Positions 18,809 to 61,834 of a DNA stretch of 64,000 nt are shown here, in pieces. The notes beneath the pieces are model-generated. The model made no database searches. It was given only the letters and a program-made list of their open reading frames with translations, and was not told the DNA's origin. The number at the start of each line of letters is the position of its first letter. Position 1 is the first letter of the stretch. Position numbers and translations under genes: made by a program. The DNA comes from Portibacter lacus (lineage in GTDB: Bacteria; Bacteroidota; Bacteroidia; Chitinophagales; Saprospiraceae): the NCBI RefSeq assembly GCF_021533215.1, contig NZ_JAJNKA010000007.1, positions 124,001-188,000 on the forward strand, written 5' to 3'.

Positions 18809-21418
18809 TTACTTTTGAAGGATCAATTTCCTCGTTTGATAGGAATGACCACTTTTTAATTGACAATAATAGATGCCACTTGGCATGTCTGATGCGTCAA
18901 AATTTACTTTATAATTTCCGGTGGTTTGTTTTTCATCCACCAGTGTACTTACTTTGTTACCATGTATGTCGTAAACTACAAGCTGAATAGATGCATACTC
19001 ACCCATTGATGGAGAAGTTACTTCATATTCAATAGTTGTATTTATTTCAAATGGATTCGGATAACTTGGAAACAAAGTGAAAGATGTTGGACGTGTGATC
19101 AATTCATCTTTTGTGGACACCGTTACTCCTTCTGGCCATTCAAGTATCAAGCTAGTCTGAGGTTGAATAACTGGATTCGAAGACAAATCAATTTCTGATT
19201 TACTAATCAAGTCAAAAGCTACACTGGGACTTCCATCTGGTAAATTAAATTCATATTCTGTATCTGGCGAAGCATTCATTAAGACCAAATATTTACCAAA
19301 ATGCCAAATATATAGACTATACATTTCGTCCACACTTTTCATTGCAGTTGTGGCCAAAAGCTCGTATTCTGGAGTTGAGTAATGTACTCTAACCTTATCG
19401 TTAGGTAGCGCTTTATCAACATGACGAATATCATTTTCCAGCGGATGACGCCACTGCATGGTTGCCCATAATTGGCTTCCTTGGTCTTTAATAACTAATA
19501 GTCCAGCTTGTTCATCTGCCCAAGCAAAATCTGGCTGTCCTTCTTCAAATGGGTACTTAACATCAGGTGTTGGCATTTCCAATGCCTGTTCAATGTAATC
19601 AACCTTACGCATCATTTCTGAGGATTCAGACATCAAGTGCACCCAATATCTAGAATAATCTACTTTAAAGTAGTGACCATATGCTGCAGCCTTTTGAGTT
19701 CCATATAAAGCCATTTCATTATCCAGCAATACCGCAGCCATGGAAACATCACCATAACCTTCACTTCCAGGGTAATAATTCTTTCTCCATCCAAGCCACT
19801 CTTCGTTTCTCACTAAAGGTCTTAAGTCATTATCATATTTTAATGAGCGCATTTTCCCAAGTGCTTCTAGATGTATTTCTAGGTATTCTTTTAATCTTTC
19901 TTCTCCAGATAACACCGCCAACCGAGCATAGTGTTCTGTATTATGTTCCCCATAGATGGTTTCATATCCACCACGTGCTAATCCGTTACCTTCTAAAGAA
20001 GTACCTTTTGGAGAAACCCAAGGGCCTCCGTAAATACCATCTTCTAACCCGATACAAACATCAAAATAATATTGCTTTGTTTCTTCTGTCCAGCAGAGAT
20101 TAGGATCAAGTGCATGTAAACATTGATCTGCTAAGTAAGCCGCCGTAAGATTAACAATATCTTGATTAGACGCATGACCTCTATTCCTGGGCAAGGTCAG
20201 ATATTCTCGGAATCCAGTAAACAAATTGATATAAGCCTGACGACGGGTAATCAGAGAATCTCCTTCATTTATTATTTCATCCATGTAGGAATCGGTCATA
20301 ATTTCATTCTGCATGGCGAGGAATGCTCCAGGAGCACCTTTCATCCCAAATCCCATCAATGAACCAACTCCCTGTATCCGATTAGGAGCTCCAACCCATC
20401 TGCCTCCAGGTACATTTTCTAGTTCAATATATCCACCATCACTACCTTGGGCAACTCTTAGAAAATCAAGCGCCTCCACCACTCGGTCTATAAGTGTAGA
20501 ATCTTGATAGTATTTCGACCATTCTTTATGAAAAGCTAGTGCAATTGTTTCGATAGGCATTTGTGCTCTGACATGTCCATTTTGACGAGCACTCCAAGTT
20601 GATTTATACTGGTCAATAGTCCAGGAAGTATCTTTTGCACCATGAATATTTAAGGCTCCGGTCATAATTTCTGGTGCCCAATCATTCGCCACCCAATTAT
20701 CCCATTCTTCACCATAATACTGCCAAGTTAAAAATCTGTCTACAGCAAGATCTAACTGAGTATGAAGATGTTCTATTTGACTTTGTCCATTGGGAGAGGA
20801 ATACGGTTCATTAAATGCCGGTGCACTGCCTTGTGCATCTTCCTCATCAGGTTTAAAGTAAGAATTAGTATGCGTGTAAGCTTTGTAAATTGGCAATTCT
20901 GCTCCACCCAATCGCATATGTATCGTGTCCTTACCGTTCAATATTTCATTAGGCAATAGGTAGGTAACATAAATGTAGCGATTCGGATAAATAGAAGAAG
21001 TACTCCAGTTGATAAGTTCTGGTGAATCAGACCCTGAACTTCCGAATGAAGTCCACCTTCCAATGTTACCAAAAACATTTTCATAATAATGTAGATGTAA
21101 ATATTTCGTACTTTTCAGGGTGTCGGATCCCCAAAATTTGAAAGTGATATAATTTTGAACTTCTGGATCTACAGCAAGGGTGACACCAAAATAGCTGGAA
21201 TCAGGATCGCTTTTGTCTAGTTTTCGGAAGGACTCATTTAATCCACCAGTTCCAATAGTCGAATTAAGTTGGTCTAAGTGATGCGCTGTCTCAGAGACTT
21301 TATCTCCAAAAATCACCATGTCTATTTGCTGAGCATCAAGATCTGAAGATAGTATTAATGTTAATCCCAAAAATAAAGAGAGATATAAGGCAAGTTTTTT
21401 CAAAATTAAATCGTGCAT
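18809..21418 (-). CDS. T9SS-secreted protein, probable helical-toroid carbohydrate-active enzyme
   Basis: An 869-residue protein: signal peptide, an N-terminal beta domain (to about 180), a long helical region at about 210-570, a beta-rich C-terminal part, and a type A T9SS sorting domain (LFPSYPNPFE ... GIYYCQLKSG). The helical region, with GARGG-like and aromatic motifs (WLGWRKNYYPG, ARGGYETIYGEHNTEHYAR), suggests an (alpha/alpha) toroid as found in polysaccharide lyases and hydrolases. I cannot assign a CAZy family or catalytic residues. The beta-helix T9SS protein follows it at 21542, suggesting joint polysaccharide processing. Confidence 0.7.
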   Translation of the reverse strand: MHDLILKKLALYLSLFLGLTLILSSDLDAQQIDMVIFGDKVSETAHHLDQLNSTIGTGGLNESFRKLDKSDPDSSYFGVTLAVDPEVQNYITFKFWGSDTLKSTKYLHLHYYENVFGNIGRWTSFGSSGSDSPELINWSTSSIYPNRYIYVTYLLPNEILNGKDTIHMRLGGAELPIYKAYTHTNSYFKPDEEDAQGSAPAFNEPYSSPNGQSQIEHLHTQLDLAVDRFLTWQYYGEEWDNWVANDWAPEIMTGALNIHGAKDTSWTIDQYKSTWSARQNGHVRAQMPIETIALAFHKEWSKYYQDSTLIDRVVEALDFLRVAQGSDGGYIELENVPGGRWVGAPNRIQGVGSLMGFGMKGAPGAFLAMQNEIMTDSYMDEIINEGDSLITRRQAYINLFTGFREYLTLPRNRGHASNQDIVNLTAAYLADQCLHALDPNLCWTEETKQYYFDVCIGLEDGIYGGPWVSPKGTSLEGNGLARGGYETIYGEHNTEHYARLAVLSGEERLKEYLEIHLEALGKMRSLKYDNDLRPLVRNEEWLGWRKNYYPGSEGYGDVSMAAVLLDNEMALYGTQKAAAYGHYFKVDYSRYWVHLMSESSEMMRKVDYIEQALEMPTPDVKYPFEEGQPDFAWADEQAGLLVIKDQGSQLWATMQWRHPLENDIRHVDKALPNDKVRVHYSTPEYELLATTAMKSVDEMYSLYIWHFGKYLVLMNASPDTEYEFNLPDGSPSVAFDLISKSEIDLSSNPVIQPQTSLILEWPEGVTVSTKDELITRPTSFTLFPSYPNPFEINTTIEYEVTSPSMGEYASIQLVVYDIHGNKVSTLVDEKQTTGNYKVNFDASDMPSGIYYCQLKSGHSYQTRKLILQK

Positions 21419-21541
21419 ATCTATGATTAAGCAAATTTACAACAGGTAGTAGATCTATTACAATAATAGTAATATATTATTAATATGCAGTTGTGATTAC
21501 AAAGTAATGCGGTTTAATAAAGTTGTTGATCTATGTAGCAC

Positions 21542-23041
21542 TTAAAACTTTATCAATTTCTTCAGAAAAAGTTGGTCATACAGATCACATTCTATCAGAA
21601 TGAAAATCGGGCCATTTGGCAGATCTTCAATATTGATTACTATCGGGGAATTAGCTTTAGAATAATCTTGCAGTATTTGACCAGTAAGATTGAGCAGCTG
21701 GATATTAGCATTGGTGAAGTTGCCTATAATTTTAACGGTATTAGTCGATGGATTAGGAAATACTTCTATGAAGCCATCATCAATTGCGATGTGGGCTTGC
21801 GATGTGGTTTCGCGACCTTCGAAAGCGCCTCTTGACGGAGGTTGGGCAAACAGGAATTGGTCGAAATCGCTTATCGGGGCATCGAGAATCAAACCATTTC
21901 CTACTGCTGGACTATTAGCTGGGATGCTATAATCTTCTGAACTGACATCTTCGAAAAGTGGATCGGCTAAGATTTGATCGGTGTCCGTTACGGGTAAATT
22001 AGGTGACCAATTATTACTACTTTCATTAAACCATAAATTATGGCTAAATGTAAATGTTTCGGGAGCGGTATTATTACCAATGTTTACCTCTGTCAGGTCG
22101 CTTTCTAATTGGACAATATTGTTTCTAAATTCATTATCTGAACAAGGTAAAAACCCAGGCTCTGTAGTTTCTTGCAGTATTCTTAGCACCCAATTCTCGG
22201 GATGGTAAAAAGTATTATTATACACTTTCACCCGTATAGCCCCAACATACGCTAAAGGTGCTCTACAACCAATAAAAACATTAGAAAATACTTCTAGATC
22301 TGCTGCTTCGAAAGCATCGACTATAGGATCAGGAAGTGGTGGACGAAAAAACTGTAAGCCTGTACTTCCTCCAAGGTTCAAAGCTCGTTGAGATATGTTT
22401 TTGAAGGTGTTTCTTTGAATCCTAATGAATTGAGTACCTCCTTTATTTTGTATCCCACTTGTTCCAGCATTGTCGAATAAGCAATCTTGAACGGTTCCCC
22501 AATGACAACCGACAAAATCTACACCACTTCCGCCGCTACCTCCATTGATAAATAGGCATCCTTCTATCAAAAAGCTATCCACGCCAGACATTTTTAGCAA
22601 ATCATTATTACCGCTAGCCGCCATATCTCGAAAAATACAATTACGAATCGTAATGTGTTTCGCGGGAGAAGAATAATCACCACCGTCATCGATATTGATC
22701 CCGTTGCCAGTTTGCTGCTCTATCACAAGTCCATCGAGCACTACATAGGAACAGTCAATAAGGTGAATCGCCTCTGTTCCGCCACGAAAGATACTTTGGT
22801 GTTGTTCATCTGCTAAAATGACAATCGGTTCATCTGCTGTTCCGTTCAAGGTTAGAAATTGGGATCCATCTGAAAAGACTTGTGCTTGTAATAGCAGCGT
22901 ATCTCCAGGTGATACAAAGCTTTCAGCTGCCTCTAAGTTATTGTAGTCACCTGTAGAGCCTATCGTTATGATTTGGGCATTAGTGAAATTGCATAAAAGC
23001 AGAAAACTAGTAATTAGCTGAAATATTTGAATTCTTTTCAT
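21542..23041 (-). CDS. T9SS-secreted right-handed beta-helix protein
   Basis: About 499 residues from MKRIQIF. A signal peptide is followed by a parallel beta-helix with strand-turn repeats (YVVLDGLVIEQQTGNGINI, HITIRNCIFRDM, DSFLIEGCLF, TVQDCLFDNAG) and the end motif RGAFEG, then a type A sorting domain (VFPNPSTNTVKIIG). Members of this fold include polysaccharide lyases (e.g. PL6) and epimerases, but no catalytic residues can be named. A TTG-started extension to 23065 is less likely because the ATG begins the signal peptide. A cluster of AGCGCT sites lies upstream. Confidence 0.8.
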   Translation of the reverse strand: MKRIQIFQLITSFLLLCNFTNAQIITIGSTGDYNNLEAAESFVSPGDTLLLQAQVFSDGSQFLTLNGTADEPIVILADEQHQSIFRGGTEAIHLIDCSYVVLDGLVIEQQTGNGINIDDGGDYSSPAKHITIRNCIFRDMAASGNNDLLKMSGVDSFLIEGCLFINGGSGGSGVDFVGCHWGTVQDCLFDNAGTSGIQNKGGTQFIRIQRNTFKNISQRALNLGGSTGLQFFRPPLPDPIVDAFEAADLEVFSNVFIGCRAPLAYVGAIRVKVYNNTFYHPENWVLRILQETTEPGFLPCSDNEFRNNIVQLESDLTEVNIGNNTAPETFTFSHNLWFNESSNNWSPNLPVTDTDQILADPLFEDVSSEDYSIPANSPAVGNGLILDAPISDFDQFLFAQPPSRGAFEGRETTSQAHIAIDDGFIEVFPNPSTNTVKIIGNFTNANIQLLNLTGQILQDYSKANSPIVINIEDLPNGPIFILIECDLYDQLFLKKLIKF

Positions 23042-23135
23042 TTTATGGAGATTGAATGAAGTCAAAAAATACTGACTATTTTCCTAACCATTTTGAAAAA
23101 TGTCATTATTCGTCTTGATGGGTTACATGCAAATT

Positions 23136-30468: not shown

Positions 30469-31908
30469 TTATTTTTCGACTTGTATAATTATCCTTTTAT
30501 ATCTCGTTAATCGTGGTGAACCGTGATCTGTAACTTCTAAAATAACATGGATAGTGCCTGTACCTGGAGGCATGAATCGTTTAGTAGGTATGGTTATCGA
30601 TGCATCAGCTTGATCAAAGTTATGTATTTTAATAGGTTGTCCATCTCGTGCATTAGATACAGGAAAAGTTCCAGCTTCTTTATAGAAAAACCAATTGTAA
30701 GAAAGTGCATCACCATCAGGATCACTAGACCCCTTCGCACTTAAGTTTATACGATCTCCTTTCTTCGCCTTTATGACTGTATCTTGGTTAATAACTGGAA
30801 TAGGAGGATGATTTGCTTGATTTCTCGGCTTAATCGTCCAATCCATTCTCGCTGCAAAGTCGTTTTGGAAAGCTTCCCTCCATCGCCATATCGTTTCATG
30901 ATTTCCTTCATGCCATTTGCCATCAACGCCTATCACTTCATCTTCCGCATCGGACCATATCGGTCTGGTTTCAGGATAAAGGTGCCATCTTCTAAAACGT
31001 GGGGTATAAAGTTCATACCTACCTCCCCATCCTCCCCAGTCAGGTTGTTCCGGTTGATTAAGACCATTGTCAATTAGTGATAAAAAAGAAGGTGTATCTC
31101 CTTCCATAAGGTATTCCCATAAAGGATATTCTGCTCCTAACGGTCCTTTCTTTCTAATATTTGTTTCCAGCCATTCATTGCTTACCATTTGAGTGTTAGC
31201 TCCATCTGCTCTGGCGTGAAACAGATCACCACTAATCCCGCTCCAAGTTGCTTTATGATAGGCTCCGCCACTATAGAATCCAGGGCTTACAATATAGAAT
31301 AAACTTGGATATTGTTTGCGAATCCAAGGACCACTATCGTCTTGATCTGAAATCGTGTAAACCCTCATTTTACTGATAAATAGCTCTAACTCACTTTTTG
31401 AGCGTGATTTTTCAACTTTCCATAGTGCCTGTGCTAATACATTAGGACCTCCCCAAACGCTTATCCATATTGGTCTCGAATCTTCTTTGTCTACCGCTTT
31501 GATTAGTAATTCAGAAGCAGGTGAATCTTTCCCTTCTCCTACGGCATTGATACCATATTCAGGAAGACCTTCTGTTACTATCGATTTCAAATAGGCTTCT
31601 GTCGGAAAACCAGTTTCATGAAGTTCTAGATTATCACGAACCTTTCCATAGGCGTTGATGATTTCATTTACTCTCCACGTTGCAACCTCATTCTTCTGAT
31701 GAATAGAAGTTGTTGCTGCAATACCTTCGATATCATATTGATTAGCATATACAAGAAATCGAACTAATGACATGGCGTCGTCTGGTTCATTCTCTATATC
31801 AGTTAGAACAAAAACTCTTGGTTTTTCGCTAGCATAAATACAAACCATGCTAGATATGAACATGAAACTAGCAAAGCATAGTAATTTTTTTAAAAAAATC
31901 ATTTTCAT
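30469..31908 (-). CDS. Secreted Sde182/DUF1593 nucleoside-hydrolase-like protein
   Basis: A 479-residue exported protein: signal peptide ([18 protein letters not shown]), then a nucleoside-hydrolase-like domain with the acidic motif [11 protein letters not shown] (residues 36-45). The C-terminal domain contains a PKD-like stretch ([19 protein letters not shown]). This is the Sde182 architecture, named from a cellulose-binding protein of Saccharophagus. It may cleave a glycosidic (ribosyl or related) bond. It is divergent from the deoR-led operon and shares the 145-bp intergenic region with it, suggesting co-regulation. Confidence 0.82.
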
Positions 31909-31987
31909 TTGAATTAAATTATATCTGAATTATTAACAGTTGCGGATTTTGAATGAACAAGTCTATTCTAGGTTTAATATAAAATGA

Positions 31988-32035
31988 ATTTACGTATATT
32001 TTCTATTATTTACGTTTATTTTTGATTATCTTCGT
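31988..32035 (+). promoter_or_regulatory. Three phased octamers, candidate DeoR operator
   Basis: ATTTACGT at 31988-31995 and 32008-32015 is identical, and ATCTTCGT at 32028-32035 matches 6 of 8. Starts are exactly 20 bp apart (two helical turns). The last ends 18 bp before the deoR ATG. Tandem phased sites are typical of DeoR-family repressors, so self-regulation of the operon is likely. Confidence 0.6.
32017..32024 (+). promoter_or_regulatory. -7-like element (TATTTTTG)
   Basis: Matches the Bacteroidota TAnnTTTG consensus, 30 bp before the deoR ATG. It lies between the second and third octamer, so a bound repressor would cover it. No clear -33 element. Confidence 0.4.
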
Positions 32036-32053
32036 TTTAAATAAATATAATTT

Positions 32054-32821
32054 ATGGCAATCTTACCTAATCATAGGAGGGAAAAAATAATGGAGTTTCT
32101 GCAAGAAGACGGATCTGCTAAAGTGGTAGACCTGGCTAAATTGTTTAAGGTAACTGAAGTAACAATACGGCAAGATCTTGAGAAATTAGAACAGCAGGGA
32201 CTTATTATAAGAGAACATGGAGGTGCCTTCCTGAAGAACATAGAAGATAACGTTCGTAATTTCTCCATCAAGAATCAAGAGAATCTGGATAAAAAGGCAA
32301 TGATTGCGTTTAAGTGTCTGGAGTTTATAGAAAGTGGCGACACCATTATTTTAGATTCAGGAAGTACGACTACTGAAATTGCAAAGAAATTAGTGGGGTA
32401 TAAAAACTTAACCGTAATTACCAATGCTTTAAATATTGCATTAATGTTAGGAACGGAACCAGGAATCGATGTTATTATGACTGGAGGAGAATTCAAGCCA
32501 CCGACCCTATCTTTAACTGGACAAAAAGCTGCTGATTTTTTCAATGGGATGAATGTTCAAAAACTGTTTCTTGCGACGGCTGGAATTTCTTTAAAGTCTG
32601 GTCTAACTTATCCTAGTATAAGTGATCTAGTGGTTAAGAAAGCAATGATAGATGCAGCAGATCTTACCTACATAGTTGCAGATAGTACTAAAATAGGAAA
32701 AAATGCATTGGCAAGCTTAGGAGCATTATCCTTAATCGATTATATAATAACAGATGCTGGAATGGAAGAAAAGGATAAAAAAATATTTAAGAATCATGAA
32801 ATAGAAGTGATTATTTCTTAA
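32054..32821 (+). CDS. DeoR-family sugar-operon repressor
   Basis: A 255-residue protein with an N-terminal HTH (RREKIMEFLQEDGSAKVVDLA; TEVTIRQDLEKLEQQGLIIREHGGA) and a C-terminal sugar-phosphate sensor domain (DSGSTTTEIAKKL; TGGEFKP; ADSTKIGKNA). The effector is probably a phosphorylated sugar made by the kinase of the same operon. First gene of the operon; phased octamers precede it. Confidence 0.93.
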   Translation: MAILPNHRREKIMEFLQEDGSAKVVDLAKLFKVTEVTIRQDLEKLEQQGLIIREHGGAFLKNIEDNVRNFSIKNQENLDKKAMIAFKCLEFIESGDTIILDSGSTTTEIAKKLVGYKNLTVITNALNIALMLGTEPGIDVIMTGGEFKPPTLSLTGQKAADFFNGMNVQKLFLATAGISLKSGLTYPSISDLVVKKAMIDAADLTYIVADSTKIGKNALASLGALSLIDYIITDAGMEEKDKKIFKNHEIEVIIS

Positions 32822-32851
32822 TCATTAGAAGGGTAAATAAAGAAAAAAAGC

Positions 32852-34273
32852 ATGTCAGAAACTGCATTAAGTATAGGAGTTATAATTGGGAATCGGGACT
32901 TTTTTCCAGATAGCTTGGTTGAAAAAGCGAGAATTGAAATCATTGATATTTTTACAAAGCTTAACTTAAAACCAATCCTTCTAGATACTAACGAAACCAA
33001 ATTAGGAGGAGTAGAAACTTATCAAGATTCGCTTAAATGCGCAGAGCTATTTAAAAAACATAGTGGCGAATTAGTGGGAATCCTTGTCCTTTTACCAAAT
33101 TTCGGAGATGAAAGAGGTGTCGCGGATACATTAAAATTGGCCGATTTAGATGTTCCAGTTTTAATTCAAGCTTATCCTGATGAGTTGTCTAAAATGAATG
33201 TGGCCAATCGCCGTGATTCTTGGTGTGGTAAAATTTCAATCTGTAATAATTTATATCAATATGGTATAAAATACTCCTTAACTAGTCAGCATGTTTCACA
33301 TCCATCTGATCCAATATTTCATAAGGATCTAAATGATTTTGTTGCGGTTTGTCGTGTTGTACGGGGATTGAAAAATATAAGAATTGGAGCAATTGGTGCT
33401 AGACCAGGCGCATTTAATACGGTTCGTTATTCAGAAAAGATATTGCAGCGAAATGGTATCACTGTAGTCACTGCTGATCTGTCTGAAATCTTAGGGAAGG
33501 CCAATAAATTGACCAAAGATGATACCTCTGTAAAAGAACATTTAGATAAAATCAATGCATATGCTCCAAAAGGAAGAACTCCCGATGAGGCAATGATACA
33601 AATTGCAAAGTTAGATGTGGTATTAAACGATTTTGTAGCGGAGCATTCATTAGATGCAACAGCTATTCAATGTTGGACATCCTTACAGCAGAATTTTGGC
33701 TGTAATGTGTGCACAAGTATGAGTATCATGTCTGAGAATATGTTACCATCTGCGTGTGAAGTGGATGTGACTGGAACATTAAGTATGTATGCCATGCAGT
33801 TGGCTTCAGGATCTCCAAGTGCGCTTGTTGATTGGAATAATAATTATGCAGATGATTCAGATAAGTGTGTCTTGTTCCATTGCGGCAATTGGGCTAAGTC
33901 CTTCATTCCTGACATTGAAATAAGCAATGCCCCGATACTCGGAACCACTGTTGGCGTTGAGAATACTTTCGGTGCATTAGATGGTCGTACTCCAGCAATG
34001 CCACTTACATATGGAAGAATTAGCACTGATGATCCTAAAGGAATCATTAAAGCATATATAGGAGAAGGAGAATTAACAGACGATCCTTTGAATACTTTTG
34101 GAAATAGAGCTGTGGCCAAAATAGAAGATTTACAAGGATTGATGAATTATGTCTGCAGAAATGGCTTTGAACACCACGTTGTTATGAATGCTTCTAAGTC
34201 AGCTGATATTCTTGAAGAAGCTCTTGGAAACTATATGGGATGGGATATATTTAAGCATCAAGTTCAATCATAA
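32852..34273 (+). CDS. L-fucose/L-arabinose isomerase-like sugar isomerase
   Basis: A 473-residue protein with the N-terminal fold of the AraA/FucI superfamily (LIQAYPDELSK; IRIGAIGARPGAFNTVRYSE). Candidate metal-site residues are in CEVDVTG and FHCGNW; the C-terminus reads GFEHHVVMNASKSADILEEAL. It should interconvert an aldose and a ketose with a divalent metal. It is 30 bp after deoR, and the operon context (kinase and transketolase) implies a pentose or branched pentose substrate, for example apiose to apulose, which is inference. Usual family length is 470-500. Confidence 0.82.
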   Translation: MSETALSIGVIIGNRDFFPDSLVEKARIEIIDIFTKLNLKPILLDTNETKLGGVETYQDSLKCAELFKKHSGELVGILVLLPNFGDERGVADTLKLADLDVPVLIQAYPDELSKMNVANRRDSWCGKISICNNLYQYGIKYSLTSQHVSHPSDPIFHKDLNDFVAVCRVVRGLKNIRIGAIGARPGAFNTVRYSEKILQRNGITVVTADLSEILGKANKLTKDDTSVKEHLDKINAYAPKGRTPDEAMIQIAKLDVVLNDFVAEHSLDATAIQCWTSLQQNFGCNVCTSMSIMSENMLPSACEVDVTGTLSMYAMQLASGSPSALVDWNNNYADDSDKCVLFHCGNWAKSFIPDIEISNAPILGTTVGVENTFGALDGRTPAMPLTYGRISTDDPKGIIKAYIGEGELTDDPLNTFGNRAVAKIEDLQGLMNYVCRNGFEHHVVMNASKSADILEEALGNYMGWDIFKHQVQS

Positions 34274-34291
34274 ATTGGTTACGAAAAAATT

Positions 34292-35116
34292 ATGACAGAA
34301 AAAGCATTAAAATTAAAATCTGTATTCTTAAGAAAGCAAATTCTTAAATACATATATAGTGCTAAAGCAGGACACACTGGAGGTAGCTTATCATGCATAG
34401 ATATTTTAAATGTTCTTTATAATTCGGTGTTAAATGTGGATCCTAATGATTTTAAAAATTCAACTCGTGATCGATATATTCAAAGCAAGGGACACTGTGT
34501 AGAAGCACTCTTTGTCACGTTAGCAGATAGAGGCTTTTTTCCTGAATCAGCATTAGAAACTTTGTGTAGATATCAATCTCATTACATTGGTCATCCAACT
34601 AGAAAAATAAATGGCGTAGAGCAAAACACAGGTGCATTAGGACATGGTTTGTCCATCAGTGTAGGAGAAGCTATCGCCGCTAAATTAGATCAGAAAAGTC
34701 ATCGTATTTTTACCTTGTTAGGTGACGGTGAATTAGCCGAAGGGTCTAATTGGGAAGCATTTTTATCCGCTTCACATTACAAATTGGATAACCTTTATGC
34801 TATCCTAGATTATAATAAACAACAAATTACAGGAAACAATAGTGAAGTGATGAACATGAATTCCATAAAAGATAAGCTTGAATCTTTTGGCTGGGCAGTT
34901 AGAGAAATAGACGGGCATAACTTAATTCAGCTTGAAACCAATTTGAATAGCGGTTCATTTCGAAAAGGAAAGCCCAATTTTGTTATTGCCCATACCATAA
35001 AAGGTAAAGGCGTAAGCTATATGGAAGGTAACTTAAAATGGCATCATGGTGTGCCTAGTCCTGATCAATATGCATTGGCTCTTAATGAATTAAATGAAGC
35101 GGAAGCATTAATCTAA
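34292..35116 (+). CDS. Transketolase, N-terminal (TPP-binding) subunit
   Basis: A 274-residue protein equal to the first half of transketolase: KAGHTGGSLSC, the thiamine diphosphate/Mg motif GDGELAEGSNWEA (GDG at 144-146, closing LDYN), and IKGKGVSYMEG. Full transketolases are about 660 residues; here the halves are separate genes, as in archaea and several sugar operons. Together with the next gene it should move a two-carbon ketol unit between sugar phosphates. 18 bp after the isomerase gene. Confidence 0.92.
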   Translation: MTEKALKLKSVFLRKQILKYIYSAKAGHTGGSLSCIDILNVLYNSVLNVDPNDFKNSTRDRYIQSKGHCVEALFVTLADRGFFPESALETLCRYQSHYIGHPTRKINGVEQNTGALGHGLSISVGEAIAAKLDQKSHRIFTLLGDGELAEGSNWEAFLSASHYKLDNLYAILDYNKQQITGNNSEVMNMNSIKDKLESFGWAVREIDGHNLIQLETNLNSGSFRKGKPNFVIAHTIKGKGVSYMEGNLKWHHGVPSPDQYALALNELNEAEALI

Positions 35117-35122
35117 GTCATT

Positions 35123-36109
35123 ATGGGAGTTGATAAAATTGACCTAAAAAAAATAAAAAATGGAAAAGCAAATCAAATTGTTTTTTCAGAAACCCTAGAG
35201 AAGTTAGCTTCGAAAGACAGGGATATTATAGTTGTAACAAGTGATTCTCGTGGGTCAGGAAAGCTTGTCTCATTCGGCGAAAACTATCCTCAACAAATAG
35301 TGGAAGTTGGAATTGCAGAGCAAAACTTAGTAGGCGTTGCAGCTGGTTTAGCATCAGCAGGGAAAAAGACATTTGCTATATCCCCAGCTTGCTTCTTAAC
35401 AGCAAGGGCATTGGAGCAAATAAAAAATGATGTTTGCTATTCTGATAACCCGGTTATACTAGTTGGCATCAGTGCTGGTGTAAGTTATGGGGCCTTAGGA
35501 ACAACGCATCACAGTTTGCACGATTTTGCTGCTCTTCGGGCATTTAATAACATCATTATTGTCGCTCCAGCTGATAATTTCGAAACTGAGCAGGTTGTTC
35601 GGTTAGCGGCAACAAGTAAAAAGCCTATTTACATGCGATATGGCAAGAAACAGATGCCTTTATTAAATGAGAATAATACATCATTTGAGCTTGGTAAAGG
35701 TAGAGTGATAAGTGAGGGACAAGATTTAACAATTATTGCCAATGGAGAAACCGTCTATCCTGCTTATTTAGCAACAAAAAAACTGGAAATAGAAAAAGGA
35801 TTAAAAGTAACGGTGGTAAGTATGCATACCATTAAGCCATTAGATACTGCATTAATTAAAAAACTTGCTTCTAACGGGAAACCTATCCTAACTGTAGAAG
35901 AACATATGGTGAATGGTGGTTTAGGCGAAGCCTGTGCTTCCTATTTAATGCAGAATGGTTTTACCAATCCATTTAAAATTATGGGCATCCCAGATGAATA
36001 TACGGTTACGGGTTCTCAGATTGAAATTTTTAATCATTATGGACTTTCAGAAGAAGGAATTTATAATGCTTGCATTGCTTTAAATGACCGTCAAAATAAC
36101 ACCAACTAA
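35123..36109 (+). CDS. Transketolase, C-terminal (pyrimidine-binding) subunit
   Basis: A 328-residue protein with the transketolase pyrimidine-binding and C-terminal domains: VEVGIAEQNLVGVAAGLA, with the catalytic Glu activating TPP, then RYGKKQMPL, TVEEHMVNGGLGEA. Starts 6 bp after the N-terminal subunit, so a 1:1 heteromer is expected. Apulose-4-phosphate transketolases are also split in this way (known for the apiose pathway), but so are several other transketolases. Confidence 0.92.
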   Translation: MGVDKIDLKKIKNGKANQIVFSETLEKLASKDRDIIVVTSDSRGSGKLVSFGENYPQQIVEVGIAEQNLVGVAAGLASAGKKTFAISPACFLTARALEQIKNDVCYSDNPVILVGISAGVSYGALGTTHHSLHDFAALRAFNNIIIVAPADNFETEQVVRLAATSKKPIYMRYGKKQMPLLNENNTSFELGKGRVISEGQDLTIIANGETVYPAYLATKKLEIEKGLKVTVVSMHTIKPLDTALIKKLASNGKPILTVEEHMVNGGLGEACASYLMQNGFTNPFKIMGIPDEYTVTGSQIEIFNHYGLSEEGIYNACIALNDRQNNTN

Positions 36110-36122
36110 ACCTATATTTTAT

Positions 36123-37082
36123 ATGCTCCAATCTTATTATACTGATGGTTTAAAAGTTTTATTGAGTTTCTTTCTCTTCATTGCGATATGTTCTTGTTCC
36201 AATACAAATGGAAGTGAGAATAAAAGAATTGCTGTGGTTATATCAACGTTGAATAATCCATGGTTTGTAGTACTTGGAGAATCAGCTGCTGAAAGAGCTC
36301 AGGAATTAGGATATGAGACTACGATTTTTGATTCACAGAATAATACTTCGAAAGAAGCAGAGCATTTCGAAAATCTTATTGCTGCAGGTTATAGTGCGGT
36401 TCTATTTAATCCAACTGATTCAGAAGGTTCTGTTTCTAATGTCAAAAGAGCAAAAGCAGCAGGTGTTCCTGTGTTCTGCATGGACAGAGAGGTTAATTCT
36501 TTAGATGCAGCAACTTCTCAGATTATATCCGACAGTTTTTCTGGTTGTGTAGCATTAGGTGAATATTTCGTTCGCCAATTAAATAAAAAAGGGAAGTATG
36601 TGGAGTTGTTAGGATTAGTCGGAGACAATAATACGTGGAATCGCTCTAAAGGCTTTCATAGTGTAGTCGATCATTTTCCAGATCTTAAAATGGTGGCACA
36701 ACAAAGTGCAGATTTTGATAGAAGTAAAGCAATGGAGGTCCTAGAATCAGTTATGCAATCACACCCAGATATTGATGCTGTTTTTTGTGGTAATGACGCA
36801 ATGGCCATGGGAGCTTATCAAGCTTTAGTGGCAGCTGGTAAAACAGAAAATGTAATGGTATTCGGTTTTGATGGCGCAGATGATGTTATGAATGCGATTT
36901 CGAATAAAAAAATAAAGGCAACTGTAATGCAATCCCCAAAGCATATGGCTAAGGTCGCTGCTGAATTAGCGGATTTATATATTAAAGGTAAGCGTGATTT
37001 CATTCCTAAAACACCTATTGCTGTGGAAGTTGTAACTCAGGAAAACATACATGACTTTGTGGCCTATGGTCAGGATAATTAA
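36123..37082 (+). CDS. Sugar ABC transporter substrate-binding lipoprotein
   Basis: About 319 residues from MLQSYYT. The signal ends in a lipobox (FIAICSCSNTN), so it is membrane-anchored. The rest is a Peripla_BP_4 (RbsB-type) two-lobe protein: VVISTLNNPWFVVLGES, NPTDSEGS, FCMDREV, FCGNDAMAMGAYQAL, FGFDGADDV. A frame start at 36084 overlaps the transketolase gene and gives a non-signal N-terminus, so 36123 is preferred. It should capture a pentose-like sugar for the ABC permease. Confidence 0.92.
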   Translation: MLQSYYTDGLKVLLSFFLFIAICSCSNTNGSENKRIAVVISTLNNPWFVVLGESAAERAQELGYETTIFDSQNNTSKEAEHFENLIAAGYSAVLFNPTDSEGSVSNVKRAKAAGVPVFCMDREVNSLDAATSQIISDSFSGCVALGEYFVRQLNKKGKYVELLGLVGDNNTWNRSKGFHSVVDHFPDLKMVAQQSADFDRSKAMEVLESVMQSHPDIDAVFCGNDAMAMGAYQALVAAGKTENVMVFGFDGADDVMNAISNKKIKATVMQSPKHMAKVAAELADLYIKGKRDFIPKTPIAVEVVTQENIHDFVAYGQDN

Positions 37083-37088
37083 ACAGCT

Positions 37089-37709
37089 ATGAATAATACT
37101 ATCAAATATTTACTTATTACAATCATCGCTGGTGTTTCTTTGTATAACGCTATTTATTTCAAGAAGCTTGATGAGGTTAAAAAGGAAGCCTCCAATACTA
37201 CTTTTAATGCGAAAAACTACGCTAACCAGTTTTTTAAGAATGATGTAGAATCATTTAAAGCTATCAATGCTTCAGATTTTTTAAACCATATCAATGCTGA
37301 TGCACAAGCATATGCAGAAAATAATGGTCATAAACTTGGAATAAGTTCAGACTATAATTTCATTGTTGAGGGTAATGCTATTGTTTTAGAGATAGAAGAA
37401 GAATACATTGTTGTAGAACTAGAATCAGACCAGCAAAGATTAAAAATAGCAACAGATTTTATTTTCGGCAATGCAATCCGGGAAGGTGCCAGAAGGGCCA
37501 ATATTGGTGACTACCAAAACACAATGGATTTCAATAATATTTCGGTCGAGCTCAATAATATTGTCAGGGAGCAAATCTTACCGCCATTTCTTCAAGAAGT
37601 GAAAGTTTCAGATCGAATCTATTTCAAAGGTGCGGCAAAAGTAAATACTAAAAGACATACAAATGAAAATATGAAAGTAATTCCAATGCTTCTAAAAATC
37701 AATAACTAG
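37089..37709 (+). CDS. DUF2291 membrane-anchored protein
   Basis: A 206-residue protein. An N-terminal transmembrane helix (YLLITIIAGVSLYNAIYF) is followed by an extracytoplasmic helical and beta domain. The position between the sugar-binding protein and ATPase genes, the length and the pattern match DUF2291, an accessory protein found in several RbsABC-type sugar transporter operons, sometimes described as a periplasmic lipoprotein; here no lipobox is seen. Its role is not established; an assembly or gating role for the transporter is inference. Confidence 0.7.
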   Translation: MNNTIKYLLITIIAGVSLYNAIYFKKLDEVKKEASNTTFNAKNYANQFFKNDVESFKAINASDFLNHINADAQAYAENNGHKLGISSDYNFIVEGNAIVLEIEEEYIVVELESDQQRLKIATDFIFGNAIREGARRANIGDYQNTMDFNNISVELNNIVREQILPPFLQEVKVSDRIYFKGAAKVNTKRHTNENMKVIPMLLKINN

Positions 37710-37713
37710 TGTT

Positions 37714-39237
37714 TTGAAAGAACAGCGAGAAACCATATTACAAGCAAAAAGCATCACTAAGAAATTTGGTAAAGTTACTGTCTTAGATGATGTAAATATT
37801 GATGTCCATCAGGGCAAGGTCAATGTAATTATTGGAGAAAATGGTGCTGGTAAATCAACCTTGATGAAGATTCTATCTGGTGTTTACTCGGATTATGATG
37901 GTGAAATATTACTGAATAATAAGGTTGTAAATTTTAGTAATCCTAAAGAGGCCATGGAAAATGGGATCGCAATTATGCATCAAGAGTTAAACTTAATACC
38001 ATACTTAAGTATTACGGCGAATATTTTTTTAGGCAGAGAAATTACAAACCAGTTTGGTATACTTAGTACAAATCAAATGCATGATAAAGTGGATGAACTA
38101 CTGAAGCGTTTGGACTGTAATCTAAGTCCAAGGACACTCGTTTCTGAGCTTCGTGTTGGAGAGCAGCAATTAGTTGAAATCGCGAAAGCCCTATTAGAAG
38201 ATGCAAAAGTAATAATCATGGACGAGCCTACTTCAGCAATTTCAGATAGTGAAGTTGAAGTACTTTTTAAAATTATTAAAAATTTAAAAACACAGGACGT
38301 TGGCATTTTATACATTTCCCATAAGCTAGATGAACTTTTCACAATAGCAGACCGATTTATCGGGTTGCGTGATGGAAAAATGGTCGGTATAATAGAAGAT
38401 GTGCGAAATACTGGAAAGGAAGACCTTATCAAATTGATGGTGGGCCGAAACATTGAAAATAGATTTCAGAAAGAAATTCTGCCAATAGGTGATGATTTAT
38501 TAGGTGTGGAAAATTTAAATCTAATTCAGGCGGATAATAAAGCTCGTTATTTATTAAAAGATATCAATTTTAGTCTTAAGAAAGGTGAAGTGTTAGGCAT
38601 ATTTGGGCTAATGGGTGCAGGAAGAACTGAGTTACTTGAAACACTTTTCGGACTGTATCCAAAGCTTTCTACTTGTAAATTGACCATAGAAAAAAAGGAA
38701 GTAAATATTAGTTCAGTGCAAGATGCTATACTGAATGGTTTGGCACTAGTTCCAGAAAATCGAAAAGAGGATGGCTTAGTACTACAGATGGATGTCTCTA
38801 AGAACATTAGCATGGTTTCCACTGATAGAGTTATTAGAAATGGATTTCTGAATAAGCACCTTGAAACCAATTTAGCTAGGAAATATATCGATTCCTTACA
38901 TATAAAATTATCATCAGAAAAACAGCTCGCAAGAAACTTAAGCGGTGGAAATCAGCAAAAGGTTGTATTAGCTAAATGGTTAGCTAATCAACCTAAGGTA
39001 TTATTTCTAGATGAACCGACTAGAGGAATAGATGTGAATGCAAAAAATGAAATATACCACCTGATTAGCCAATTAGCCAGCAAGGGATTGGGACTTATTG
39101 TAGTATCATCCGAGTTGCCAGAAATTATGGCTATTTCAGATCGGATTCTTATACTAAGTCAGGGCAAAATAACAGGGGAATTTAATCGAACAAGTGCTAA
39201 TGAAGAAGCTATAATGCAAGCTGCAACTTCTACATAA
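37714..39237 (+). CDS. Sugar ABC transporter ATP-binding protein (RbsA type, two domains)
   Basis: A 507-residue protein with two fused ATPase domains. Domain 1: Walker A GENGAGKST (41-49), signature LRVGEQQ, Walker B VIIMDEPTS. Domain 2: degenerate Walker A FGLMGAGRT, signature LSGGNQQ (409-415), Walker B VLFLDEPTR. This is the ribose/galactoside subfamily. The start is TTG, four bases after the DUF2291 stop. Powers the permease that follows. Confidence 0.94.
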   Translation: MKEQRETILQAKSITKKFGKVTVLDDVNIDVHQGKVNVIIGENGAGKSTLMKILSGVYSDYDGEILLNNKVVNFSNPKEAMENGIAIMHQELNLIPYLSITANIFLGREITNQFGILSTNQMHDKVDELLKRLDCNLSPRTLVSELRVGEQQLVEIAKALLEDAKVIIMDEPTSAISDSEVEVLFKIIKNLKTQDVGILYISHKLDELFTIADRFIGLRDGKMVGIIEDVRNTGKEDLIKLMVGRNIENRFQKEILPIGDDLLGVENLNLIQADNKARYLLKDINFSLKKGEVLGIFGLMGAGRTELLETLFGLYPKLSTCKLTIEKKEVNISSVQDAILNGLALVPENRKEDGLVLQMDVSKNISMVSTDRVIRNGFLNKHLETNLARKYIDSLHIKLSSEKQLARNLSGGNQQKVVLAKWLANQPKVLFLDEPTRGIDVNAKNEIYHLISQLASKGLGLIVVSSELPEIMAISDRILILSQGKITGEFNRTSANEEAIMQAATST

Positions 39238-39264
39238 GACAAATAACAAGAACTAAAAACTATA

Positions 39265-40236
39265 ATGACCACGGTTAAATCAACATTAATAAAATTTCAA
39301 TCCATCATTGCGTTATTCGTGATGTGTGTGGTCTTGATCATTTTATCAGATAAATTTTTTACAGTAGAAAACGGATGGAATATTGCTAGACAAATTTCTA
39401 TTAACGTCTGTATTTCTGTTGGGATGACATTAGTAATATTAACAAAAGGAATCGATTTATCGGTAGGTTCTATGCTTGCATTAAGTGGAGCTGTTGCAGC
39501 AGGTCTTTTAAAATATGGCTTAGAAATACCTTCGATGAACACCTATGTCGGTTTTACAGTATTTGGTGCTATCCTTGCGGGATTGGCTGTTGGCGGCGGT
39601 TTAGGTGTATTTAACGGTTGGATGATCACTAATTTTAAAGTGCCCTCTTTTGTTGCTACGCTTGCGATGTTAACAATTGCACGAGGAGCAACAATGTTAT
39701 GGACTGGTGGTTTCCCTATAACAGGGTTGGGAGATCATTTTGCATTTATAGGTACAGGCTGGTTTTTAGGAATACCTATGCCAGTTTGGATAACCGTAAT
39801 AGTGGTCATCCTAGCCGTTATTTTAACTACAAAAACAAAATTCGGTCGTCATATATATGCTATTGGTGGTAATGAAAGTGCTGCAAGATTGTCGGGAATA
39901 AATATTAATAAAGTTAAGATTTGGGTATATACCATTGCAGGTATATTAGCAGCTGTCGGTGGTATTATTCTTACATCAAGATTAGATTCTGCTCAACCTA
40001 ATGCAGGAATGAGCTATGAATTAGATGCCATAGCCGCTGTAGTGATAGGTGGAACATCTCTATCAGGAGGTCGGGGTTCTATCATGGGAACAGTTCAGGG
40101 AGCCTTAATTATTGGCGTATTAAATAGTGGTCTAGTGCTACTTAATGTCTCTCCTTTTTGGCAGCAAATTATTAAAGGATTGGTTATTTTATTAGCGGTT
40201 ATCTTAGATCGTTTAAATTATGCAAACGAAGATTAA
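39265..40236 (+). CDS. Sugar ABC transporter permease (RbsC type)
   Basis: A 323-residue membrane protein with about eight to ten helices. The family signatures are LTKGIDLSVGSMLAL and ALIIGVLNSGLVLL, with GGTSLSGGRGSIMGT just before the last. It forms the channel with the ATPase encoded immediately upstream. The C-terminus is close to usual family length. Confidence 0.94.
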   Translation: MTTVKSTLIKFQSIIALFVMCVVLIILSDKFFTVENGWNIARQISINVCISVGMTLVILTKGIDLSVGSMLALSGAVAAGLLKYGLEIPSMNTYVGFTVFGAILAGLAVGGGLGVFNGWMITNFKVPSFVATLAMLTIARGATMLWTGGFPITGLGDHFAFIGTGWFLGIPMPVWITVIVVILAVILTTKTKFGRHIYAIGGNESAARLSGININKVKIWVYTIAGILAAVGGIILTSRLDSAQPNAGMSYELDAIAAVVIGGTSLSGGRGSIMGTVQGALIIGVLNSGLVLLNVSPFWQQIIKGLVILLAVILDRLNYANED

Positions 40237-40259
40237 AGAATACAAACCAATATCGAAGC

Positions 40260-41756
40260 ATGTTGAAATCATATATCCTCTCTATTGACCAAGGTACTAG
40301 CGGAACAAAGGCAATTATATTTAATCAAAATGGAGAGATAGTTTCCAAGGCAACAGCACCATTAAGATCTATTTATTTAAGTGCAGGATATGTTGAGCAA
40401 GACCCATTTGAAATTTATAATTCTGTTTTAAATGCAGTAAAAGCATGTGTTTTAGAGTTTAGGAAAAAATATACCGCCGATGTCCATCAAATTGTTTCTT
40501 GTGGTATATCTAATCAAAGGGAAACGTTTGTTTTATGGGATCAAGATGGAAAACCTTTTCATAATGCTGTTGTGTGGCAATGTAAAAGATCCATAGCAAT
40601 TTGTGAATCTTTAAAAGAATCGAAATATGAAACTAAGATCAATGAGAAAACTGGATTAACAATAGATGCTTATTTCTCTGCGACTAAGGTGATGTGGCTC
40701 AATCAAAACATTCCTCATCTTAGAAAATCTATTTCGGAAGGTCAAGTATTTTTTGGTACTGTGGATACTTGGTTGCTCTATAATTTAACAAGCAAGCAGA
40801 CTTTCAAGACCGACCATACGAATGCCTCCAGAACCTTATTTTATAACATCTATAATTTATCATGGGATAAAGAATTACTCCAGATTTTCGAGCTAGAGCA
40901 ATTGAATTTGCCAGAGGTCGTTTCATCGTCATCAAATTTTGGATCCTCAACATTTGGAGGGGTTTTTAATTATGAGATTCCGATTACCGGAATGATCGGC
41001 GATTCTCAAGCGGCATTTTTCGGTGAAGAATGTTTTAGTATCGGACAAGCAAAAGCAACATTAGGGACGGGATGTTCGATTTTATGGAATGCAGAAAAAT
41101 TAGACCCAAATAGAAATAATAGGATGATGACAACGATTGGTTGGAGTCATGAAGGAAGAGTTAGGTATGCGTTAGAAGGAGTAATAGTGAGTTGTGGATC
41201 TACAATAGAATGGTTAAAAAATCAACTCAATATTTTTGAGTCAAATGAGGATATTGAGAAAATGGCAGTGTCACTACCATCCAATGAAGGCGTATATCTC
41301 ATTCCAGCTTTTAGCGGCATGGGGGCACCATATTGGAAGCAAGACTGGAAAGCATCTATACACGGATTAACTTTCAAGACGACAAAGGCTCATTTAGTAA
41401 GAGCTGCTCTTGAATCTATTGCCTATCAGATATTCGATGTCATAAAATCTATGGAAGGTGAAACTGGAATCACTCTGGAAGAATTAAAAGTAAACGGTGG
41501 AATAACAGCGAATCAATTTCTAATGCAGTTTCTAGCAGACTTATTAAATATTCCTGCAGTCAATAAAGGAATAACAGATGTTTCTGCATGGGGTGCTGCT
41601 ATGATTGCTGGTTTAGGTCATGAATTATGGGACAGTATTGAAGAATTCCCAATAACAAAACCTGGTGCTGTTAAAACGTATATTCCTAGTGATGAAAGAC
41701 CAGAAGTACAAGAATATCATGCACAATGGTTAAAGCTTATTCATGAGAAATTATAG
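40260..41756 (+). CDS. FGGY-family sugar kinase (glycerol-kinase-like)
   Basis: A 498-residue kinase. The phosphate motif LSIDQGTSGTKAIIF and the adenosine region GTGCSILWN are present, and the C-terminal FGGY half has LEELKVNGGITANQFLMQFLAD. Similarity to glycerol kinase is seen, but the operon makes a ketose (for example apulose or a pentulose) the more likely substrate. It would phosphorylate the ketose made by the isomerase before transketolase cleavage. Last gene of the operon. Confidence 0.88.
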   Translation: MLKSYILSIDQGTSGTKAIIFNQNGEIVSKATAPLRSIYLSAGYVEQDPFEIYNSVLNAVKACVLEFRKKYTADVHQIVSCGISNQRETFVLWDQDGKPFHNAVVWQCKRSIAICESLKESKYETKINEKTGLTIDAYFSATKVMWLNQNIPHLRKSISEGQVFFGTVDTWLLYNLTSKQTFKTDHTNASRTLFYNIYNLSWDKELLQIFELEQLNLPEVVSSSSNFGSSTFGGVFNYEIPITGMIGDSQAAFFGEECFSIGQAKATLGTGCSILWNAEKLDPNRNNRMMTTIGWSHEGRVRYALEGVIVSCGSTIEWLKNQLNIFESNEDIEKMAVSLPSNEGVYLIPAFSGMGAPYWKQDWKASIHGLTFKTTKAHLVRAALESIAYQIFDVIKSMEGETGITLEELKVNGGITANQFLMQFLADLLNIPAVNKGITDVSAWGAAMIAGLGHELWDSIEEFPITKPGAVKTYIPSDERPEVQEYHAQWLKLIHEKL

Positions 41757-59985: not shown

Positions 59986-60007
59986 ATCTTTTAAACATTT
60001 ACCGTTA
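59986..60007 (+). repeat. Dispersed repeat, diverged copy 5
   Basis: GATCTTTTAAACATTTACCGTT aligns with the copy at 15993-16014 with three mismatches. It runs across the 3' end of the sulfatase gene (stop at 60005). Confidence 0.35.
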
Positions 60008-61834
60008 TACTTTTTTAACATATGCATAATAAGCAGATTGCTCATTTCCTTCACCATCGATCAGCCAGGCTTGAACTTCTGTCTGACCAGCAGGTAAATC
60101 TATAATAAATTCAGCACCTACTTCACTTCCTTCTACTGCCTTTTCAATAATTTGCGTACCAACTTTTAAGCGAACTTTAGTAACTGGAATTCCTTTTCCG
60201 GCTCCTTTTTTAATTGGTTTCCCATTCGTAGAAATATCACTATAAGCAGCTTCCGGTAATGCTGATGCAAGTGGTAAATTCACTTCTTTAGGCCATCGAC
60301 GAACATCGAAGTGGTATGGTCCTTCTTGGGAGATTTCAACGGGCCAGAAACCTATCGCTTTTTCACCAGCTAAAACATGGCTTTGATTCCAGCTATGAAC
60401 CTTAAGATCTTCCCTGATCCAACTGATCGAATTCAACCAAACTTCCTCTTGATATTCAGTTCCAATGATAGGTCTTGGGTATGGGTAGTCGTCCATCTGC
60501 AATTCATCCCAGTAGTCATCATATTTTTTAGATAATTCTGCAACGATATCTGGATACGCTTCAGCAACATTGTTTTTCTGCCCAGGATCAGCATTAATAT
60601 CGTAGAGCGCATTCTTATTAATAAGCCTCCACTGGTCGGTATAGACAATAATATTCTTATCCTTAATCTGTTTGTCTACAATGTTCTGAACATGATTTAT
60701 GATTACTCGATCTTCCCATTCCGTCTCTGGATTTTTTAACAAGGGCTCCAGACTACGTCCGTCTATAGCGAGATTACTTTTTTCTAAATTGTCCAAGTGG
60801 CAAATATTAATTAAGGTGGGTAAGAGATCTATATGTGCTGTAAACTTATCGATATCAACTGCCTTATTGAATCCGCCTGCAGGCCAATGAACAAAACAAG
60901 GCACTCGATGACCACCATCATACAATGAACCTTTCGAGCCTCTCATTCCATCGTTGAAAACATGAGTGCCATCAGAACTTCCATTATCCGTCAGAAAAAT
61001 GATGATGGTATTTTCATCTAGCTCATTGTCTGCTAAATATTGACGTAGTCTTCCTATGTTTTGATCTACTCTAGTAATCGATGCAAATAAATCCTTTGTA
61101 TCGCCCCATGGAACTGTCCGCATTTTAAAATCCATACCCTCATATTCTTCCCGCCATTCAGGAAGCACATTCATCGGCCCGTGAGGAACATTGGTTGCTA
61201 AGTAAATAAAAAATGGTTCGTCTTTGCTTTTTTCAATAAAATCAATGGTTTCATCAAAGAAAACATCAGTATTAAAGCCTTTGATCTTTTCCCACTTCCC
61301 ATTTCTGAGATAAGCATCATCCATTCGATCATTCCCCCAGTAATCATTAGCGGTCCCTACTCCACCATCTCCGATTCCTACCCATTCATCGAATCCTCTA
61401 TCCATCGGTCGGTATGGATAGTTATCACCAAGATGCCATTTTCCAAAATGTCCCGTATGGTATCCCGAAGCTTTAAAGTAATCAGCCATAGTTATTTCCT
61501 CTTTGGCGAGGTGGTTCCGAACATATACGGTAGAATGCACTTGAGTCCTATCAGACATTCTTCCAGTCATTAAGGCTGCTCTCGTCGGTGCACAAAAAGA
61601 ATTCACATGAAAGACAGTAAATCTCGTGCTTTCAGCATATAATTTGTCCAGATGAGGTGTTTTAATGTATGGATTACCGTGAGCTGCTAAATCTCCGTAT
61701 CCTTGATCGTCGGTCATGATAAGAATAACATTTGGCTTTTTAAATTTTTCATCATCCTGCGATGTAGACGAATGAAACAAAAAGACAATTACAATGAGGA
61801 TATTATATGGCGTTAAAATGTTCAAGTTTTTCAT
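60005..61834 (-). CDS. Secreted type I (formylglycine) sulfatase
   Basis: A 609-residue exported sulfatase. A signal peptide is followed by PNVILIMTDDQGYGDL (metal Asp pair) and the formylglycine motif CAPTR with Cys81, where Thr replaces the usual Ser. GKWHLGD and LTDNGSSDGTH complete the active site. The last 100 residues form a beta domain. It desulfates a sulfated carbohydrate or ester; needs a sulfatase-maturing enzyme, not found in this window. Suggests use of marine sulfated polysaccharides. Confidence 0.9.
   Translation of the reverse strand: MKNLNILTPYNILIVIVFLFHSSTSQDDEKFKKPNVILIMTDDQGYGDLAAHGNPYIKTPHLDKLYAESTRFTVFHVNSFCAPTRAALMTGRMSDRTQVHSTVYVRNHLAKEEITMADYFKASGYHTGHFGKWHLGDNYPYRPMDRGFDEWVGIGDGGVGTANDYWGNDRMDDAYLRNGKWEKIKGFNTDVFFDETIDFIEKSKDEPFFIYLATNVPHGPMNVLPEWREEYEGMDFKMRTVPWGDTKDLFASITRVDQNIGRLRQYLADNELDENTIIIFLTDNGSSDGTHVFNDGMRGSKGSLYDGGHRVPCFVHWPAGGFNKAVDIDKFTAHIDLLPTLINICHLDNLEKSNLAIDGRSLEPLLKNPETEWEDRVIINHVQNIVDKQIKDKNIIVYTDQWRLINKNALYDINADPGQKNNVAEAYPDIVAELSKKYDDYWDELQMDDYPYPRPIIGTEYQEEVWLNSISWIREDLKVHSWNQSHVLAGEKAIGFWPVEISQEGPYHFDVRRWPKEVNLPLASALPEAAYSDISTNGKPIKKGAGKGIPVTKVRLKVGTQIIEKAVEGSEVGAEFIIDLPAGQTEVQAWLIDGEGNEQSAYYAYVKKV

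Follow-up and report, generated by a model that had tools for sequence, protein, structure and literature searches.

Gene content and conservation of the operon

The window analysed here, a 64,000-nucleotide stretch of a Portibacter lacus contig (NZ_JAJNKA010000007.1), carries a candidate operon for the use of D-apiose: nine genes, all on the forward strand between positions 32054 and 41756, with intergenic distances of 30, 18, 6, -26, 6, 4, 27 and 23 nt. The nine genes are listed first, followed by the divergent neighbouring gene and a repeat in the intergenic region.

32054-32821, +, DeoR-family regulator, AgaR-like (Pfam PF00455/PF08220, HTH_DeoR/DeoRC)
32852-34273, +, FucI-type ketol-isomerase, candidate D-apiose isomerase (PF02952, Fucose_iso_C)
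34292-35116, +, N-terminal subunit of a split transketolase, AptA-like (PF00456, Transketolase_N)
35123-36109, +, C-terminal subunit of the split transketolase, AptB-like (PF02779/PF02780, Transket_pyr and Transketolase_C)
36084-37082, +, ribose-type sugar-binding lipoprotein, RbsB-like (PF13407, Peripla_BP_4; Cys38 invariant across an alignment of 31)
37089-37709, +, DUF2291 protein (PF10054, 141 bits; described in Pfam as a predicted periplasmic lipoprotein)
37714-39237, +, RbsA-type double ABC ATPase with a TTG start (PF00005, ABC_tran, two stretches)
39265-40236, +, RbsC-type permease (PF02653, BPD_transp_2; 351 bits with the NCBIfam ribose permease model, under the cut-off of 398)
40260-41756, +, GlpK-type FGGY kinase with an altered glycerol pocket (S246/S270), candidate D-apulose kinase (FGGY_N/FGGY_C)
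30469-31908, -, Sde182 nucleoside-hydrolase-like protein, divergent from the operon, with an N-terminal hydrophobic helix (PF07632 and Sde0182_C)
31989-32027, +, tandem 20-nt direct repeats within the 145 nt that separate the two divergent genes, candidate operator for the DeoR-type regulator

The initial annotation had described nine same-strand genes with short gaps, and both order and strand were borne out (gaps of -26 to +30 nt), as were the families that it named (DeoR, isomerase, split transketolase, lipoprotein, DUF2291, RbsA/RbsC and FGGY kinase), which were recovered with Pfam and NCBIfam. Its statement that no epimerase, aldolase or phosphatase is present also held, Pfam finding none among the nine genes. 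The unit of nine genes stands as it was drawn, but the divergent gene at 30469-31908, also part of the conserved neighbourhood, is missing from it. The best NCBIfam match of the regulator was AgaR, at 209 bits and under the cut-off of 260. Third-position GC averaged 0.266 in the ten genes from 30469 to 41756, compared with 0.307 in 38 other open reading frames (ORFs) of the window (p 0.003; ORFs of at least 180 aa, one ORF overlapping another being excluded).

A scan of a genome collection with the isomerase gave 466 relatives, from which the best 80 loci were kept (isomerase identity 77-88%); these are the closest of the 466, and counts over them are uncorrected for kinship. All 80 belong to Bacteroidota, and in 56 of them tblastn recovered every gene except DUF2291 (eight genes), mostly in the same order, even with several loci cut by contig ends; the joint presence of eight genes in so many related loci argues against a chance cluster. 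Our own ORF picking was unreliable in GC-rich loci. Pectinesterase, GH127 and rhamnosidase genes occur among the neighbours of these loci.

The distribution of the isomerase was patchy. Among 40 genomes (the window's own and 39 relatives) it was found in the window genome only, and in a sample of 392 genomes from the phylum it was present in 18, four with 70-100% and fourteen with 48-51% identity. Twelve of the 14 regions around the more distant isomerases lacked any apt match at 1e-10, and the other two (L124 and L125) had a weak transketolase-N match, 37-39% identical to other AptA-like subunits. In the three regions that were checked, a sodium symporter gene follows the distant isomerase (L131:9374-15773, L128:7088-12020 and L123:9302-12457). 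L131 also encodes an ARMT1-like phosphatase and L128 an FGGY kinase, and these surroundings suggest that the symporter-linked isomerases would serve a different sugar. This patchiness and the mixed gene contexts imply that the isomerase family extends beyond a single pathway. A search for empty sites yielded nothing usable, the flanking gene used as anchor being absent from both same-genus genomes.

The start coordinate that the initial annotation gave for the operon, 31988, coincides with the tandem repeats, whose two 20-nt copies are 85% identical to each other. By visual inspection, comparable repeats also precede the regulator gene in two other loci (L015 and L016), and it is plausible that they form an operator for the DeoR-type regulator. 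A search of the 6.3 Mb genome for both copies together, tolerating up to 3 mismatches, gave only one match, and the idea that the candidate operator serves a wider regulon was rejected on this basis. A promoter and terminator scan gave a signal no better than chance.

The kinase pocket and the enterobacterial apt clusters

Against TIGR01311, the equivalog model for glycerol kinase, the window kinase scored 549 bits, under the cut-off of 590; against the broader subfamily model PRK00047 it scored 545 bits, over the cut-off of 498. In E. coli GlpK, the positions that contact glycerol are R83, E84, W103, Y135, D245, Q246 and F270; by this test the window kinase fails as a glycerol kinase, carrying Q246S and F270S. 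The Ser/Ser pair, in the motif REW(Y/L)DSS, was present in all 57 kinases recovered from the 80 related loci, and also in four enterobacterial kinases including that of the E. coli apiose cluster, as well as in the kinases of Listeria, Croceibacterium and genome G416. The motif with Q and F kept (REWYDQF) was found in 26 of 30 GlpK-family (TIGR01311) loci of a 60-genome sample, the four others being an operon kinase with Ser/Ser (G098), an ORF picked in error and two remote FGGY proteins.

The enterobacterial clusters provide the link to apiose. According to the accessible part of PMC13001218, where aplK, aptA and aptB are listed with their locus tags, E. coli and E. fergusonii strains that carry the cluster grow on D-apiose and K-12 does not. 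We found that the cluster of E. coli SE15 encodes AptA, AptB, an FGGY kinase, a ribose-type binding protein, DUF2291, RbsA and RbsC, with two short-chain dehydrogenase/reductase (SDR) oxidoreductases in place of an isomerase (L010:4042-5657), a substitution also noted in that part of PMC13001218. The Klebsiella, Rahnella and Sodalis clusters represent the version with a fucose-type isomerase. The window operon shares with the enterobacterial apt clusters the isomerase (except in E. coli), the S246/S270 GlpK-type kinase, the split transketolase, RbsB, DUF2291, RbsA and RbsC, and differs in its regulator, which is DeoR/AgaR-like in the window and resembles Bacillus DeoR and LsrR in the enterobacteria. 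The DUF2291 gene is annotated beside rbsB in the E. coli, Klebsiella, Rahnella and Sodalis clusters; the window DUF2291 protein gave no BLAST match to the enterobacterial ones at 1e-5. One of the Klebsiella records (L007, CP110761.1) is an 11.6 kb linear 'plasmid' that consists of almost nothing except an apiose-type cluster, and is perhaps an assembly fragment.

The window isomerase is 53-54% identical to the isomerases of the Klebsiella, Rahnella and Sodalis clusters, the AptA-like subunit 44-47% to enterobacterial AptA (46% to that of E. coli SE15) and the AptB-like subunit 38-41% to enterobacterial AptB (40% to that of E. coli SE15). In a tree of 31 isomerase sequences, the Bacteroidota operon isomerases and the three enterobacterial ones formed a single clade of 16 rows (support 99/100), apart from 13 distant homologues of the same phylum, with Listeria and Subdoligranulum on very long branches. 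The initial annotation had named clustering with enzymes of another substrate as a result that would speak against apiose; the grouping found is with isomerases of the apt clusters.

A Listeria operon offers a further comparison, with the order LacI, isomerase, TK-N, TK-C (the two transketolase halves), GlpK-like kinase, phosphotransferase system (PTS) and a PF13204 protein. It shares with the window the four catabolic enzymes and the Ser/Ser kinase signature, and its TK-N is 53% identical to the window AptA-like subunit. Unlike the window operon, it imports through a PTS instead of an ABC system, its isomerase is only 26% identical, and a PF13204 gene lies within it, encoding a DUF4038-annotated protein that scored 313 bits with PF13204 (Apiosidase). 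The Listeria record (L011, NZ_CP030101.1) is labelled a plasmid, yet at 2.9 Mb is chromosome-sized. Among the 80 related loci, tblastn with two PF13204 queries gave matches at 11, three of them inside the operon; these three, from Emticicia, are of the divergent DUF5060/PF13204/DUF5605 type (64 bits). A proximity count placed 13 of 76 PF13204 matches near the loci, with coordinates compared irrespective of contig identity. A PF13204 match is also present in Thermotoga maritima.

Apiose and its alternatives

The gene content, its conservation, the grouping of the isomerase, the kinase pocket signature and the linkage of PF07632 were observed directly, and the nine genes are, in our judgement, probably a DeoR-regulated D-apiose operon of the transketolase route. 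Apiose would be bound by the RbsB-like lipoprotein and imported through RbsA/RbsC, and the FucI-type enzyme would convert D-apiose to D-apulose. The GlpK-type kinase would then phosphorylate a hydroxymethyl group at the glycerol-like end, giving apulose 4-phosphate, from which the split transketolase would transfer C1-C2 to an aldose phosphate acceptor, leaving dihydroxyacetone phosphate. Because apulose has a glycerol-like end, a GlpK-type kinase whose pocket had been widened would be chemically sensible. The chemistry of the pathway is reportedly that of Carter et al. 2018. We infer every substrate and reaction in this scheme, as well as the ligand of the repressor and the roles of the DUF2291 and PF07632 proteins. 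The logic of import, isomerisation, phosphorylation and transketolase cleavage had been proposed for apiose in the initial annotation and gains support from the E. coli clusters tied to growth on D-apiose, which would make apiose the substrate here also. A literature search, with most subscription papers outside its reach, returned no paper for apulose.

Several observations weigh against this assignment. The window kinase is only 35-37% identical to the enterobacterial kinases and falls in a clade separate from them, the kinase tree joining GlpK with the enterobacterial kinases (96/92) rather than with the window clade, although its root is unsure and the outgroup branches are very long. The tree does not support the window kinase as an orthologue of enterobacterial AplK, and the Ser/Ser pair common to both may be ancestral or convergent. 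The identification of the window isomerase as an apiose isomerase would follow from comparison with apt-cluster isomerases, not with the named Pectobacterium enzyme ApsI. The window genome is without any PF13204 match, and in the 392-genome sample isomerase and PF13204 co-occur in 5 genomes against 2.25 expected (p 0.06, not significant). Finally, all ten listed ribose contacts of the T. maritima ribose-binding protein (RBP) are kept in the window binding protein, and the available part of PMC3750489 reports that ribose and xylose induce the T. maritima ribose operon, in which it places a transketolase and two enzymes predicted to act on D-arabinose.

These last points lend themselves to a ribose/D-arabinose operon, in which ribose, perhaps from nucleosides cut by the PF07632 protein, would be imported, isomerised to ribulose, phosphorylated and passed into the pentose phosphate pathway, with the transketolase as an accessory. 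In favour of it, the window binding protein shares 57% identity with T. maritima RBP. Nucleoside-hydrolase-fold proteins also lie nearby, and in five Spirosoma loci (L076, L080, L082, L083 and L088) a gene for a PF01156-like nucleoside hydrolase, checked with Pfam in the L082 copy, sits between aptA and aptB. The structure PDB 5ibq is reportedly that of a related binding protein holding apiose. Although the T. maritima operon shares with the window RbsABC, two predicted sugar catabolic enzymes (likened by description) and a transketolase, it includes a ribokinase and is described as ribose/D-arabinose in the accessible parts of PMC3750489 and PMC2630998. The window operon contains no PfkB-family gene by Pfam and hence no ribokinase, none of the eight PF00294 matches of the genome lies on contig C41, and the kinase that is present is of the GlpK type with the pocket pair of the E. 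coli apiose-cluster kinase. It is well established that ribulose 5-phosphate is not a transketolase donor, which likewise counts against ribose. The available text of PMC8910321 reports that Sde_0182, a solved PF07632 relative, is inactive on nucleosides. On this balance we regard ribose or D-arabinose as an unlikely substrate.

Another glycerol-ended ketose, branched or four-carbon and other than that derived from apiose, might be used by a transketolase pathway of the same layout, since the pocket is altered from that of glycerol kinase and its exact ligand is unreadable from sequence. However, pocket pair and module match those of the enterobacterial clusters associated with growth on apiose, and relatives carry apiosidase-family genes near the operon, which makes such a ketose very unlikely. 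A sulfoquinovose pathway of the transketolase type, where the isomerase would make sulfofructose for the split transketolase to cut, was suggested by the sole NCBIfam match of the isomerase at E 0.001, the sulfoquinovose isomerase SftI (99 bits), and the sulfo-TK route does employ a PF02952 isomerase and the transketolase SqwGH, according to the part of PMC9594981 available. The score is nevertheless far under the SftI cut-off of 700, with the Klebsiella apt-cluster isomerase likewise reaching only 114. As described in the same part of PMC9594981, the route is without a kinase step and uses SqwI and a sulfoacetaldehyde enzyme, neither of which is in the operon. Sulfoquinovose was rejected on this score and these missing genes, and its use here appears extremely improbable.

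The divergent PF07632 protein

The protein encoded at 30469-31908 scored 380 bits with PF07632, against a gathering score of 26.8, and belongs to a Pfam family different from that of the PF13204/GH140 apiosidases. The nearest solved structure to its AlphaFold model (mean predicted local distance difference test score, pLDDT, 87) is 2yhg, Sde_0182 of Saccharophagus degradans, with 40% identity over the alignment. A profile comparison with nucleoside hydrolases gave 69% probability, with the N-terminal part alone aligned. D37, D43 and D44 are invariant in 49 PF07632 homologues, and presumably have a calcium role as in nucleoside hydrolases. Sde_0182 shares the nucleoside-hydrolase-like fold, but it has three additional carbohydrate-binding domains. 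The accessible part of PMC8910321 reports inactivity on both purine and pyrimidine nucleosides, binding of ribofuranose and a retained calcium ion, describes an inactive, furanose-interacting module, and makes no mention of apiose.

PF07632-type matches were detected by tblastn at 51 of the 80 related loci; at 34 of these the match falls within the operon and has its orientation (where the kinase fell outside the sequence, a same-strand PF07632 match downstream of the isomerase was counted as inside). In the 38 of the 80 loci whose genomes were searched whole, 72 of 112 PF07632 matches were near the locus against 0.94 expected, 7 fragmentary matches of the 119 outside the window genome being excluded; because coordinates were compared irrespective of contig identity, at least one pair (G042) in this count is false, and the direct count of 51 of 80 is the safer one. 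PF07632 and the isomerase occurred together in 7 genomes of the 392-genome sample against 1.6 expected (p 0.0004), adjacent to each other only in the window genome. In G416 and G294, PF07632 lies beside aptA and a TIM-barrel (PF01261) gene with the isomerase elsewhere in the genome, and on a Croceibacterium plasmid it adjoins a PF01261 gene with the apt genes about 23 kb away and a pectinase region around the module. The three TIM-barrel genes are 51-89% identical to one another, and their position implies that the link between PF07632 and apt genes also holds with a different isomerase type.

Other results speak against an apiose role for this family. No apt genes were found in any of 20 PF07632 regions from 20 isomerase-less genomes, and no PF07632 match was detected in the four enterobacterial apt stretches or the Listeria stretch, whereas one is present at the window locus. 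PF07632 as an exclusive marker of apiose use was rejected, as 28 of the 35 PF07632 genomes in the 392-genome sample are without the isomerase. PF07632 and PF13204 were found together in 20 genomes of that sample against 4.4 expected, which may merely reflect plant-polymer lifestyles.

The linkage, the likeness to Sde_0182, the invariant aspartates, and the six PF07632 and zero PF13204 matches in the window genome lead us to propose an apiofuranoside-directed role. The divergent protein may free or capture apiofuranosyl residues outside the cytoplasm; that PF07632 (Sde182/DUF1593) is a family in its own right of apiofuranosidases, or of proteins binding apiofuranose, that feeds the apiose operon, with its members replacing GH140 in the window genome, is a tentative suggestion that we hold somewhat below even odds.

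Another part of the window's contig has three consecutive PF07632 genes next to a sulfate-permease-type (SulP) transporter gene (L135:7637-13765), and SulP-type genes also occur within the PF07632 regions L118 and L098. The window further encodes a sulfatase (PF00884) with an SGSH_C domain at 60005-61834 (-) and, at 18809-23065 (-), two proteins with the type IX secretion sorting domain Por_Secre_tail, one of them also with a beta-helix domain.

The apiose transketolase route, a pathway type already known, most likely now extends to a conserved operon of Bacteroidota, and the Ser-Ser pair in the glycerol pocket offers a simple way to tell, from sequence, a candidate apulose kinase from a glycerol kinase. 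In the pectin rhamnogalacturonan II it is apiose that bears the borate cross-link, so that enzymes releasing this sugar matter for the turnover of plant cell walls. The link to PF07632 is the new part of these findings and, if true, would give a nucleoside-hydrolase-like family a concrete substrate class.

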